Shown here piece by piece: positions 9,959-62,631 of a DNA stretch of 64,000 nucleotides. Within the stretch, counting starts at the first letter, position 1; every line of letters begins with the position of its first letter. The notes below the pieces were generated by a model. It saw only the letters and a list, made by a program, of their open reading frames with translations, was not told the origin of the DNA and did not search any database. The DNA lies in the NCBI RefSeq assembly GCF_008124525.1, contig NZ_VNHJ01000003.1, positions 62,001 through 126,000 on the forward strand, in the 5' to 3' direction. The stretch comes from Oceanicella actignis. GTDB lineage: Bacteria > Pseudomonadota > Alphaproteobacteria > Rhodobacterales > Rhodobacteraceae. Position numbers and translations under genes: made by a program.

Positions 9959-11449
9959 ATGACCGACGCCGACATCGCCTCCCGCTTCCCGCGTCACCCC
10001 TTCGACAGCGACGACCCGGACAAGCTGCGCGAGGAATGCGGCCTGTTCGGCGCCTTCAACGTGACCGACGCCGCCAGCTTCGTGGCGCTGGGCCTGCATG
10101 CGCTGCAGCATCGCGGACAGGAGGCGGCGGGCATCGTCACCTACGACCCCGAGATCGGCTTCAGCTCGGTGCGCCGGCTGGGCTATGTGCGCGACAACTT
10201 CACCCAGCGCGAGACGATAGAGGCCCTGCCCGGCCGCAGCGGCATCGGCCATGTGCGCTACTCGACCTCGGGCGCCAAGGGGCAGACCGCCATCCGCGAC
10301 GTGCAGCCGCTTTACGCGGACCTGGCCATGGGCGGCTGCGCCGTCGCGCACAACGGCAACCTGACCAACGCCCGCGCCATCAAGAAGGAGCTGATCGAGC
10401 GCGGCTCGATCTTCCAGTCCTCGTCCGACACCGAGGTCATCATCCATCTGATGGCCCGCAGCTTCCAGAAGAACATCCCCGAGCGCATGAAAGAGGCGCT
10501 GCGCCGCGTCGAGGGCGCGTTCTCGATCATCGCGCTGACGCGCTCGAAGATGATCGGCGTGCGCGACCCGCTGGGCGTGCGCCCGCTGTCGCTGGCGCGT
10601 CTGGGCGAGGGCTGGGCGCTGGCTTCCGAGACCTGCGCCTTCGACATCTGCGGCGCCGAGTTCGTGCGCGAGATCGAGCCGGGCGAGATGGTCATCATCT
10701 CGGAGAAGGGCGTCGAAAGCTTCCGCCCCTTCGAGCCGGCGCGCCCGCGCTTTTGCATCTTCGAGCATGTGTATTTCTCGCGCCCCGACAGCGTGATCGG
10801 CGGCCGCTCGGTCTATGAGAGCCGCCGCGCCATCGGCGTCGAGCTGGCGCGCGAGGCGCCGGTCGAGGCCGATCTGGTCTGCCCAATCCCCGACAGCGGC
10901 ACCCCGGCGGCCATCGGCTACAGCCAGGAAAGCGGCATTCCGTACGCCATGGGGATCATCCGCAACCAGTACATGGGCCGCACCTTCATCGAGCCCTCCG
11001 AGCAGATCCGCAACATGGGCGTGCGGCTCAAGCTCAACGTCAACCGCGCGCTGATCCGCGGCAAGCGCGTGGTGCTGGTGGACGATTCGGTGGTGCGCGG
11101 CACCACCTCGCGCAAGATCCGCGAGATGATCGTGGACGCCGGCGCGGCCGAGGTGCATTTCCGCATCGCCTCGCCGCCCACCGCCTGGCCCTGCTTCTAC
11201 GGCGTGGACACGCCCGAGCGCGACAAGCTTCTGGCCGCGCGCATGACCGAGGAAGAGATGCGCGCCTATCTGGGCGTGGACAGCCTGCGCTTCATCTCGC
11301 TCGACGGGCTTTACCGCGCCGTGGGCGAGGAGAACGGCCGCGACCCCTCGGCGCCGCGCTATTGCGACGCGTGCTTCTCGGGGCAGTATCCGATCCCGCC
11401 CTCGGACGCGCTGAGCGAGGGCGCGCTCGAGCTGGAGGACGCGCGATGA
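9959..11449 (+). CDS. purF: amidophosphoribosyltransferase
   Basis: 496 aa (EC 2.4.2.14). It catalyses the first committed step of purine synthesis: PRPP plus glutamine to phosphoribosylamine. The catalytic N-terminal nucleophile is Cys27 in REECGLFGAF, so a 26-residue propeptide must be removed. Glutaminase-domain blocks include ALQHRGQEAAGI and GHVRYSTSG. The PRPP-binding loop is VVLVDDSVVRGTTSRK. The Cys positions near IASPPTAWPCFYGVD and YCDACFSGQYP resemble the B. subtilis-type enzyme with an Fe-S cluster (inference). The stop overlaps the next start as ATGA. Confidence 0.98.
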   Translation: MTDADIASRFPRHPFDSDDPDKLREECGLFGAFNVTDAASFVALGLHALQHRGQEAAGIVTYDPEIGFSSVRRLGYVRDNFTQRETIEALPGRSGIGHVRYSTSGAKGQTAIRDVQPLYADLAMGGCAVAHNGNLTNARAIKKELIERGSIFQSSSDTEVIIHLMARSFQKNIPERMKEALRRVEGAFSIIALTRSKMIGVRDPLGVRPLSLARLGEGWALASETCAFDICGAEFVREIEPGEMVIISEKGVESFRPFEPARPRFCIFEHVYFSRPDSVIGGRSVYESRRAIGVELAREAPVEADLVCPIPDSGTPAAIGYSQESGIPYAMGIIRNQYMGRTFIEPSEQIRNMGVRLKLNVNRALIRGKRVVLVDDSVVRGTTSRKIREMIVDAGAAEVHFRIASPPTAWPCFYGVDTPERDKLLAARMTEEEMRAYLGVDSLRFISLDGLYRAVGEENGRDPSAPRYCDACFSGQYPIPPSDALSEGALELEDAR

Positions 11450-56383: not shown

Positions 56384-57343
56384 TCAGCCGCCCAGCCGCG
56401 CGCGAATGAAGGCGTCCTCGGCCGCCTGATAGTCGCGCGCGATCTTCAGATCGAACATGTTGAAGGCATGCACCCCGCCCGGATAGACGCGCAGATCCGC
56501 CTCGGCGCCCGCCGCGACCCAGCGCGCGGCCATCATCAGCGTGTCGTCCAGCAGCGGGTCCCAGGTTCCGACCTGGAACAGCGCGGGGGGCATGCCCTCG
56601 AGCGCGGCCAGAAGCGGCGACACGCGCGGATCGGCGCGCAGCGCCCGGTCGGGAACGAAGTTGCCCACGAACCAGGCGATGGTCGGGGTGGACAGGATCA
56701 GCTGCCGCGCGCCCCAGTTCGCCGCCGAGGGCGTCATGCGCAGATCATGCATGCCATAGTTCAGGATCGCGCCGCGCACGCGCTCCATCCGTCCCGCATC
56801 GCGCAGCGCCAGAAGGGTCAGCGCCGCCAGATGCGCGCCCGCCGACTCGCCGCCCACGATCATGGGCGCGTCGTCCCCCGCCCCGAGCGCCCGCGCGCCC
56901 TCGTCCAGCGTCCATAGCGCCGCCGCAAGGCACGCCTCGGGCGCCGCCGGCCAGGGATGCTCGGGCGCCAGCGGATAGGCCACCGAAACCACCGCCGCGC
57001 CCGTGCGCCGCGCGATGCGCTGGTTGTGCAGGTCGTAATGCGCCGGGCTGCCCAGGGTCCAGCCGCCGCCATGGATGTGCAGATAGACCCCCCGCGGCGC
57101 GCCCTCGGGCGCCGAGACTCGCACCCGCCCGCCGCCGGGCAGCTCGAGCCAGCGCGACCCCTCGAGCGGGCCGGCGGGCGGGAACAGGCCGCGCCCCTCC
57201 TCGCGCGCGCGGCGGGTCTCTTCGACCGGCACGGCATGCGTGGGGGGAACAGCGCGCAGCGCCTCCTCGAGACGGGCGTTGAAGGCGAGGGTTTCCTCGT
57301 CGGCGGCGGCGGGCGCGAACAATGCGGTGTCCAGCGTGAGCAT
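56384..57343 (-). CDS. HSL-type alpha/beta hydrolase (esterase)
   Basis: 319 aa carboxylesterase of the hormone-sensitive-lipase family (bacterial group IV). The oxyanion-hole HGGGW (about residues 93-97), the nucleophile in GGESAGAH, the acid in VGTWDPLLDD and the His in PGGVHAFNMF make a complete triad. No signal peptide, so cytoplasmic. The ATG at 57343 has no Shine-Dalgarno sequence but lies 6 nt after TAGCAT, suggesting a leaderless mRNA. Substrate unknown, probably a short acyl ester. Confidence 0.92.
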   Translation of the reverse strand: MLTLDTALFAPAAADEETLAFNARLEEALRAVPPTHAVPVEETRRAREEGRGLFPPAGPLEGSRWLELPGGGRVRVSAPEGAPRGVYLHIHGGGWTLGSPAHYDLHNQRIARRTGAAVVSVAYPLAPEHPWPAAPEACLAAALWTLDEGARALGAGDDAPMIVGGESAGAHLAALTLLALRDAGRMERVRGAILNYGMHDLRMTPSAANWGARQLILSTPTIAWFVGNFVPDRALRADPRVSPLLAALEGMPPALFQVGTWDPLLDDTLMMAARWVAAGAEADLRVYPGGVHAFNMFDLKIARDYQAAEDAFIRARLGG

Positions 57344-57349
57344 GCCCGC

Positions 57350-57355
57350 ATGCTA
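57350..57355 (-). promoter_or_regulatory. -10-like hexamer 6 nt before the esterase ATG
   Basis: TAGCAT on the minus strand, then GCGGGC, then ATG. The -35 region is poor (TTTT-containing). Listed because three other genes in the window show the same geometry. Confidence 0.3.
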
Positions 57356-57385
57356 GCAAATCGCCGGCGCGCGAAAAGCCCCCGC

Positions 57386-57740
57386 GACCCTCGGCCGCGC
57401 GCAAGACAGGCCCCGGCGACGCGCGAGACGGAACGACGTCCCGCGCGGGGAAACGCCAGGCGCGCGAGGCGGAACGGCGGTTTGACGAGCGACCACCCCT
57501 CGCAGGCGAGGGAACGGCAAAGCCAGATCGCGCGCGGCGCCCGGCGGACGTCCCCTCGCGCGCGTGGAGACGCCGCAATCTCGGCCGGAGCGCCGACGTC
57601 CCTGCGCGCGGAAAACGCGGCACGATCGGCGCGACTTTGGCGCGGATGACGCCGACGCTCCGGCCGGCGCGGAAGACGCGCTGGCGCGGCGCGATGACAT
57701 GCGTGCCGTCCCGACGCCCGTGCGAGCGCCGGAAGACGCC
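57386..57740. repeat. array of about six degenerate, imperfectly palindromic 25-nt units
   Basis: Units at about 57386, 57435, 57491, 57547, 57595, 57654 and 57713 (the first is weakest) recur every 48-59 nt. The common pattern is GACGTCCC, a GC spacer of 5-10 nt, then GGAAACGCC or GGAAGACGCC. Each can fold as a short hairpin. The surrounding gap 57344-57902 has no supported gene. Units share a pattern but not identity, so they are not a fresh tandem duplication. Confidence 0.45.
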
Positions 57741-57902
57741 AGCCATGCCACGCCATGACGGGCCGCCAAGGCGCCGGCGGCGCCGCGCCCCGCGCACAAG
57801 CGCGTGACCCGCGCGCGCGCGCATTGACAGCCCCCGCGCGGGCGGAAAACCTGCCGCAAGCGCCCAGACGGGCGCGCGGTTCCAGCAGAAGAAGGAAAGC
57901 CG

Positions 57903-58853
57903 ATGAAGGACCACGCCGCCGGCCCCGCCCCCGGCAAGTTCGTCGATCCCGAGCTGGCCCTTTCGGGGCGTCCGCGCGCGCGCGTCGCGCCGGTCGGGCT
58001 CAAGACGCTGTGGTTCAACACGGGCACGCTGTGCAACATCGAGTGCCTGCGCTGCTACATCGAGTCCAGCCCCACCAACGACGCGCTGGTCTATCTGACC
58101 GAGGCCGAGGTGCGCGCCTATCTGGACGAGGCCGAGGCGCTGGGGCTCGAGCTGCGCGAGGTCGGCTTCACGGGCGGCGAGCCCTTCATGGCGCCCGAGA
58201 TCATCGGCATGATCGGCGCCGCGCTCGAGCGCGGGCGCGAGGCGCTGGTGCTGACCAACGCCATGCGCCCGATGATGCGGCCGCGCGTGCAGGCGGGCAT
58301 CCGGCGCCTGGCGGCCGCGCATGGCGGGCGGCTGACTCTGCGCGTCTCGCTCGATCACCACGAGGCGCGCCATCACGACGAGGAGCGCGGCGCGGGCGCG
58401 TTCGAGATCGCGCTGGCCGGTCTGCGCTGGCTGCGCGAGGCGGGCGTGCGCACGGCGATCGCCGGCCGCACCCTGTGGGGCGAGGACGAGCGCGACGCGC
58501 GCGCCGGCTACGCCGCCCTGTTCGCGCGCGAGGGGCTCGACATCGACGCCTGGGACCCCGCCCGCCTGGTGCTGTTCCCCGAGATGGACGAAAGCGGCGA
58601 TCCGCCCGAGATCACCGTCGATTGCTGGCAGATCCTGAACAAGCGCCCCGAAGAGGTGATGTGCGCCAGCTCGCGCATGGTGGTGCGGCGCAAGGGCGCC
58701 GACGGCCCGAGCGTGGTCGCCTGCACGCTGCTGCCCTACGATGCGCGATTCGAGCTCGGGCGCACCCTGGCCGAAGCCCTGCGCCCGGTGCCGCTCAACC
58801 ACCCGCATTGCGCGACCTTCTGCGTCCTGGGCGGGGGCAGCTGCTCGGCCTGA
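57903..58853 (+). CDS. radical SAM protein of uncharacterised family
   Basis: 316 aa. The SAM-cluster motif C-x3-C-x2-C is C44, C48 and C51 in TLCNIECLRCYIES. GFTGGEPFMAPEI supplies the GGE SAM-amino-binding motif. The C-terminus has more cysteines in MCASSRM, VVACTLLPYD and HPHCATFCVLGGGSCSA, so an auxiliary Fe-S cluster or product-binding site is possible. I recognise this as a conserved alphaproteobacterial family with strongly preserved termini but no assigned reaction. GAAGGA lies seven bases before the ATG. Isolated between two gene-poor gaps. Confidence 0.9.
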   Translation: MKDHAAGPAPGKFVDPELALSGRPRARVAPVGLKTLWFNTGTLCNIECLRCYIESSPTNDALVYLTEAEVRAYLDEAEALGLELREVGFTGGEPFMAPEIIGMIGAALERGREALVLTNAMRPMMRPRVQAGIRRLAAAHGGRLTLRVSLDHHEARHHDEERGAGAFEIALAGLRWLREAGVRTAIAGRTLWGEDERDARAGYAALFAREGLDIDAWDPARLVLFPEMDESGDPPEITVDCWQILNKRPEEVMCASSRMVVRRKGADGPSVVACTLLPYDARFELGRTLAEALRPVPLNHPHCATFCVLGGGSCSA

Positions 58854-61512: not shown

Positions 61513-62631
61513 ATGCGCACGCAGACCATCCGCATCGACGCGGCCGAGGCCGCGCTGGACCTGCCCATGGAGGCGCCCCGCGGCGCGGCGCTGCTGGCGC
61601 ATCAATTCGCCGGCTCGCGCGCCGATCGCCGCATCGCCGGCGCGCTGGCCGCGCGCGGGCTGGCGACGCTGCGCCTTGACCTGAGCGCGCCGCCGACGGG
61701 CGGCGGCGCCGATCCCGCCGCGCTGGTGGCGCGCGCCGCGCAGGAAATGGCGGCGCGGGGTCTCGCGCCGGGGCTGATCGCGGGGCATGGGCTGGGCGGA
61801 ACGGCCGCGGCCGCCGCGGCGCATCGGATCGGATCGGCGCGCGCGCTGGCGCTGATCAACGCTTTTCACGACGGCGCAGCGGTCATGGGGCCGGGGGCCC
61901 CGGCGGGTCTGGACGGGCCGTCGGTGGACCAGGCGCTGCGCGCGCTGCGCCGGCCGCTGCTGATCCTGCACGCGCCGCGCGACGCGACCGCCGCCATCGA
62001 CAACGCCACCGCGCTGTTCCTTGCCGCGCGCCATCCCAAGAGCTTCCTCTCGCTCGACGACGCCGACCATGTCCTGTCCGATCCGCGCCATGCGGACGAC
62101 GCGGCCGAGATGATCGCCGCCTGGGCGGGGCGGCGCCTGCCCCCGCCCCCGGCCCGCCCCGACGAGCCGCCCGCCGCCGAGGGTCCGGTCCTGGTCGCCG
62201 AAGCCGCGCCCGACGGCTTCGCGCAGCATGTCTTCGCCGCCCCCGACGCCGCCTTCATGGCCGACGAGCCGCCCTCGCTTGGCGGCGGCGGGCGCGGGGC
62301 GACGCCCTATCAGCTGGTGGCGGCGGGGCTGGGGGCGTGCACCTCGATGACCATCCGCATGTATGCGCGGCGCAAGGGCTGGCCGCTGACCCATGTCGAG
62401 GTCGAGCTGCGCCACGACCGCATCCATGCCGGCGACTGCGCCGACTGCCCCGAGGGCGCCGGCAAGCTCGACCGCTTCCGCCGGCGCATCGCGCTGCACG
62501 GCCCGCTGGACGCGGCGCAGCGCGCGCGGCTGATGGAGATCGCCGACCGCTGCCCCGTCCACCGCACGCTGACGGGCCGGATCGTGATCGAGACCGAGGA
62601 GGCGCCGCCCCCGAGCGCGGCCGATGGCTGA
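61513..62631 (+). CDS. bifunctional alpha/beta hydrolase-OsmC fusion (hydrolase Ser missing)
   Basis: 372 aa. Residues 1-230 form an alpha/beta-hydrolase domain with LLAHQFAGSRADRRI and a nucleophile elbow that reads GHGLGG instead of GHSLGG. The catalytic Ser is therefore Gly. The acid DATAAIDNA and His DADHVLS regions remain. Residues 235-372 are an OsmC domain with peroxidatic Cys in GLGACTSMTIRMYARRKGWP and the second Cys in CPVHRTL. OsmC proteins reduce organic hydroperoxides. The fusion itself is known in proteobacteria. AAGGAGG precedes the ATG. Confidence 0.92.
   Translation: MRTQTIRIDAAEAALDLPMEAPRGAALLAHQFAGSRADRRIAGALAARGLATLRLDLSAPPTGGGADPAALVARAAQEMAARGLAPGLIAGHGLGGTAAAAAAHRIGSARALALINAFHDGAAVMGPGAPAGLDGPSVDQALRALRRPLLILHAPRDATAAIDNATALFLAARHPKSFLSLDDADHVLSDPRHADDAAEMIAAWAGRRLPPPPARPDEPPAAEGPVLVAEAAPDGFAQHVFAAPDAAFMADEPPSLGGGGRGATPYQLVAAGLGACTSMTIRMYARRKGWPLTHVEVELRHDRIHAGDCADCPEGAGKLDRFRRRIALHGPLDAAQRARLMEIADRCPVHRTLTGRIVIETEEAPPPSAADG

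Follow-up and report, generated by a model that had tools for sequence, protein, structure and literature searches.

The 559-nt intergenic gap that separates an esterase gene from a divergent radical SAM gene is probably an unconstrained, internally repetitive spacer with a GC content of 76%. The resemblance among the six units that it contains is weak, although above the level of dinucleotide shuffles, and ranks as ordinary for this genome; the units do not recur and form no consistent hairpin. The window, by which we mean the whole 64-kb stretch of DNA analyzed, corresponds to positions 62001–126000 of contig C3 from a 3.28 Mb genome (35 contigs, 99.9% complete). Its GC content is 73.4%, that of the gap 75.7%. 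The relevant features are located as follows.

56384–57343, minus strand: esterase (alpha/beta hydrolase, hormone-sensitive-lipase-like; Abhydrolase_3, E = 4.3e-52)
57344–57902: intergenic gap of 559 nt, separating the divergent esterase and radical SAM genes
57435–57457, plus strand: unit 1, GACGTCCC-gcgcgg-GGAAACGCC (two-block motif EM, PWM)
57491–57518, plus strand: unit 2, GACCACCC-ctcgcaggcga-GGGAACGGC (weakest fit, leave-one-out score 7.8)
57547–57574, plus strand: unit 3, GACGTCCC-ctcgcgcgcgt-GGAGACGCC (two-block motif EM, PWM)
57595–57619, plus strand: unit 4, GACGTCCC-tgcgcgcg-GAAAACGCG (two-block motif EM, PWM)
57654–57680, plus strand: unit 5, GACGCTCC-ggccggcgcg-GAAGACGCG (two-block motif EM, PWM)
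57713–57740, plus strand: unit 6, GACGCCCG-tgcgagcgccg-GAAGACGCC (de novo search placed the sixth site at 57705)
57824–57852, plus strand: possible radical SAM promoter, TTGACA-17 nt-AAACCT (by eye; not called in a consensus scan)
57903–58853, plus strand: radical SAM protein gene (radical SAM domain, E = 2.4e-13)

The start positions of consecutive units are 56, 56, 48, 59 and 59 nt apart and their ends 61, 56, 45, 61 and 60 nt, with pairwise identities between 0.61 and 0.84 (mean 0.72). These measurements agree with the initial annotation, which had reported about six look-alike units at a variable spacing of 48–59 nt. Its account of a gene-free, 559-nt gap flanked by an esterase and a radical SAM gene is likewise confirmed by the domain matches and by a gene finder, which predicted no gene between 57344 and 57902. 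The description of the units as palindromic holds only weakly. Compared with shuffles, units 1 to 6 fold with z-scores of -0.09, -1.17, -1.20, +0.77, -1.89 and 0.00, and folding of all six revealed no conserved stem-loop per unit.

To what extent do these units stand out statistically? Two-block motif EM with a free start (blocks of 8 and then 9 nt separated by 6–14 nt; six sites with a minimum spacing of 40 nt) recovered five of the six units exactly and placed the sixth site 8 nt off (57705 instead of 57713). The resulting score of 127.2 was reached by none of 100 dinucleotide shuffles (113.7 ± 3.0). Since the gap length, the number of units and the minimum spacing were fitted to the description in the initial annotation, this search was not blind and amounts to a favorable test. 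Spacer DNA with 73% GC readily gives CRISPR-looking series of motifs that can even beat dinucleotide shuffles, and for this reason the appropriate comparison is with other intergenic DNA from the same genome. In slices from 1.66 Mb of the genome, including the window (genes predicted by codon usage, gaps kept), the gap ranked 4th of 65 with the tuned motif test and, once the sample was enlarged, 15th of 163, so that about one in eleven comparable slices scored at least as high. Hence, even on a test built around it, the gap belongs to the top tenth of intergenic slices and is no outlier.

By the count and length of its gapless 25-mer matches, the gap has an ordinary self-similarity: 25–32% of shuffles and 37–41% of slices from the window reach the same level. 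A shuffle control, which the initial annotation had named as a possible refutation, thus gave a divided answer, with equal self-similarity by the plain 25-mer measure and unequal self-similarity by the tuned motif. As a group, intergenic slices score above their own shuffles (mean z 0.5–0.6, sd 1.9–2.0), which indicates that internal repetitiveness is a genome-wide property. Chains of four units in the gap scored 88 at a spacing of 55–65 nt and 76–83 at other spacing ranges, a small margin. When five-unit chains were searched without the earlier coordinates at a loose spacing of 44–66 nt, the gap tied for the highest score among 121 intergenic regions, a score reached by 1% of its own shuffles; this chain is not identical to the six units listed above. 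At a strict spacing of 56–63 nt, the gap is unremarkable (43rd and 60th of 121) and matches its shuffles.

The suggestion that the units belong to a dispersed palindromic repeat family found no support. When the gap was compared with its own genome by BLAST, the best hit was a 23-nt exact match, and the rest was GC-rich noise. A search of 99 other genomes of the family, with no congener among them, returned a single match of 45 nt. A position weight matrix of the unit (threshold 12, 464 kb) produced 222 matches compared to 191 ± 109 for column-permuted matrices, and so is not enriched. The unit therefore recurs neither in its own genome nor in the 99 other family genomes, an outcome that the initial annotation had named as speaking against its proposal. 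The matched stretch within the own genome, 57377–57399, is identical to C3:334206–334228 on the opposite strand. The family match lies in one genome of another genus (L064, 1501–1545; 87% identity to 57650–57692, E = 8.5e-6). By eye, no array is seen around this site, and the match is possibly a fragment of a former coding sequence.

How could an unconstrained spacer have acquired such a repetitive appearance? The small number of letters and the strong CG-dinucleotide bias of a 73% GC genome could make GACG, CCC, GCGCGC and GGAA blocks recur, and local slippage or duplication followed by loss of constraint may have produced partly similar blocks. The shared core TCCC-GCGC-GGGA would then be the usual look of GC-rich near-palindromes, and the six units would need, and presumably have, no conserved function. 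In favor of the spacer reading are the 25-mer self-similarity at the level of shuffles and slices, rank 15 of 163, the lack of PWM excess and of recurrence in the family, and the small chain margin. It is also favored by the abundance of long intergenic regions (49 with a length of 500 nt or more in 1.264 Mb), and by a gene neighborhood that is not common to relatives. The radical SAM protein is 61–70% identical to homologues mostly from Rhodobacteraceae, and in none of 80 relatives did we find the esterase within some 3 kb of the gene for this homologue; consequently, the relatives offer no orthologous gap for comparison. What counts against the spacer reading is that none of 100 shuffles reached the motif score, that five of six units were recovered de novo, that a five-unit chain at loose spacing ties for the top rank, and that the units resemble a CRISPR repeat of the same genome beyond nearly all permutations.

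Many relatives (L069, L081, L085, L097 and others) share a stretch similar to GTCTAACA...TTCACAATGGYGTCA about 60–110 nt upstream of the start codon of their radical SAM homologue, whose counterpart in the window does not carry this stretch.

The CRISPR repeat in question belongs to one genuine type I-E CRISPR-Cas locus on contig C18 (L166, 2821–13379), the array of which continues on contig C20 (L185, 1–1653). The only matches to the Cas3 HD domain and to Cas1 are located on C18. The open reading frames at this locus follow the usual I-E order, with subunits beyond Cas3 and Cas1 assigned by eye; a search with one generic model for cas2, TIGR01573, was negative. An open reading frame that by eye resembles a DUF262-type protein (about 9.1–11.1 kb of L166) separates the presumed cas5 from the presumed cas6, which is unusual. 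The repeat, GCGTTCCCCGCACACGCGGGGATGACCCG, has a period of 61 nt, and all 18 copies found within three mismatches are on C18 and C20, the latter of which also contains a masked stretch.

Could the gap be a heavily decayed array of this kind, with six relic repeats of about 25–28 nt and their spacers, from which selection was lost and in which small indels blurred the 61-nt period? We consider this reading, raised in the initial annotation in the general form of a decayed array, possible but unlikely. Like the array on C18 and C20, the gap contains units of 23–28 nt with a CCC-GC-GGG core, and three of the five spacings between unit ends are 60–61 nt, which is the period of the intact array. 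Against the I-E repeat, the units have a mean score of 25.8, compared to 19.4 (sd 3.2) for random intergenic 32-mers; their z-score of 1.97 was reached by 0 of 150 and by 0.5% of 200 palindrome-preserving permutations. However, the units show just as good a fit to a CGTC-REP consensus (z = 2.39), so their resemblance to the I-E repeat is not specific for CRISPR, and readings on the plus and minus strands fit about equally. True repeats of the I-E array are nearly all identical, have a constant period and adjoin the cas operon, whereas the units in the gap are 61–84% alike, lie 45–61 nt apart and have no cas genes nearby. Given the equal fit to the REP consensus and the average rank at strict 56–63 nt spacing, we do not class the gap as CRISPR. 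Diverged repeats outside an array are known from CreTA (PMC9458426), in which ectopic degenerate CRISPR repeats, mostly one or two, are physically linked to cas genes. The gap differs by having six units on a contig other than that of cas, and the literature on REP elements and on CRISPR repeats that are decayed or ectopic provided comparison cases and no match to the gap. If the gap were a decayed array, the genome would hold an unusual record of several CRISPR-like arrays in decay.

Clearer degenerate arrays do occur elsewhere in this genome. On C3 from about position 132398 (L209, C3:130001–150000; 2398–2668), degenerate TCCCCGCGCGCGGG-cored units follow each other at 61, 61, 59 and 58 nt in an 801-nt intergenic region without cas genes, and this array looks like a relic of a type I-E-like array. 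On C2 from about position 390323 (L159, C2:380001–400000; 10323–10535), four units are spaced by 59, 60 and 61 nt in a 947-nt intergenic region; they have a GCGCGCGGGG core, after which comes (C)ATG. Both arrays stand out at the strict spacing of 56–63 nt. The sampled 1.66 Mb contain 297 intergenic regions with a length of 150 nt or more, in which strong 25-mer self-matches are in excess at lags of 55–64 nt, with 28 regions at 55–59 nt and 24 at 60–64 nt compared to 10.8 ± 2.8 at flanking lags. After removal of six named loci, including L209, L159 and the gap, the same bins still contain 25 and 20 regions. In 400 kb of held-out DNA that had not been used to form this idea, we counted 9 and 14 regions compared to 5.8 ± 2.2, which shows that the excess replicates at 60–64 nt and weakly at 55–59 nt; no array resembling L209 or L159 was seen in this part. 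This genome-wide self-similarity of intergenic DNA is more interesting than the gap itself. These observations also speak for the decayed-array reading, and they allow a broader one: hairpin arrays of a degenerate I-E-like type with a period near 60 nt might be scattered through the genome, the clearest at L209 and L159, and the gap might be a worn example. Such arrays might have arisen through off-target Cas1-Cas2 integration or descend from ancient orphan arrays, and some may have been retained as crRNA-like regulators. We regard this explanation as improbable. Model R1, derived from 15 units at four loci other than the gap, yielded no base pair in RNAalifold and detected only one of the six units in the gap (57552–57577, E = 0.17) amid many background matches.

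The position of the units between two divergent genes would suit a group of operators through which a regulator controls both promoters, and GACGTCCC is present in three copies within 170 nt, compared to five in the whole window. However, the spacings between unit starts do not correspond to whole helical turns, the two-block matrix is not enriched in the genome, and no further target gene emerged; genome-wide, GACGNCCC-N6-16-GGARRACG has three matches. Operator function is improbable. We give slightly less credit to repeated RNA hairpins, either REP-like or processed as small RNA, because single units fold inconsistently, Rfam returned no match at gathering score within the window and no REP-like family was seen in 1.264 Mb of the genome, although the 355 nt from 57386 to 57740, taken as a whole, fold moderately better than their shuffles (z = -1.93 on the plus strand, -2.80 on the minus strand) and Alphaproteobacteria typically carry REPs of the CGTC-tagged superfamily (Di Nocera et al. 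2013, PMC3733652). According to the predicted structures, the better folding of this stretch comes from long-range pairing and not from one hairpin per unit. For a protein-binding or RNA-hairpin element, both suggested by the initial annotation, we thus obtained no positive evidence.

The comparison with REP elements can be made in more specific terms. REPs have stems of 8–9 bp that start with AT, loops of 4–5 nt and many copies per genome, mostly as head-to-head pairs (PMC3733652). The units in the gap are similarly short, GC-rich and palindrome-like with CGTC at one end; unlike REPs, they lack such stems and dispersed copies, and all have the same orientation. Ten CGTC-type tagged hairpins with a stem starting with AT or AC were found in 1.264 Mb, and the stems of the eight listed are unrelated to each other. 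CGTC-type tagged hairpins overall number 391, hardly above the first of three control tag sets (371) and more common than the other two (252 and 182).
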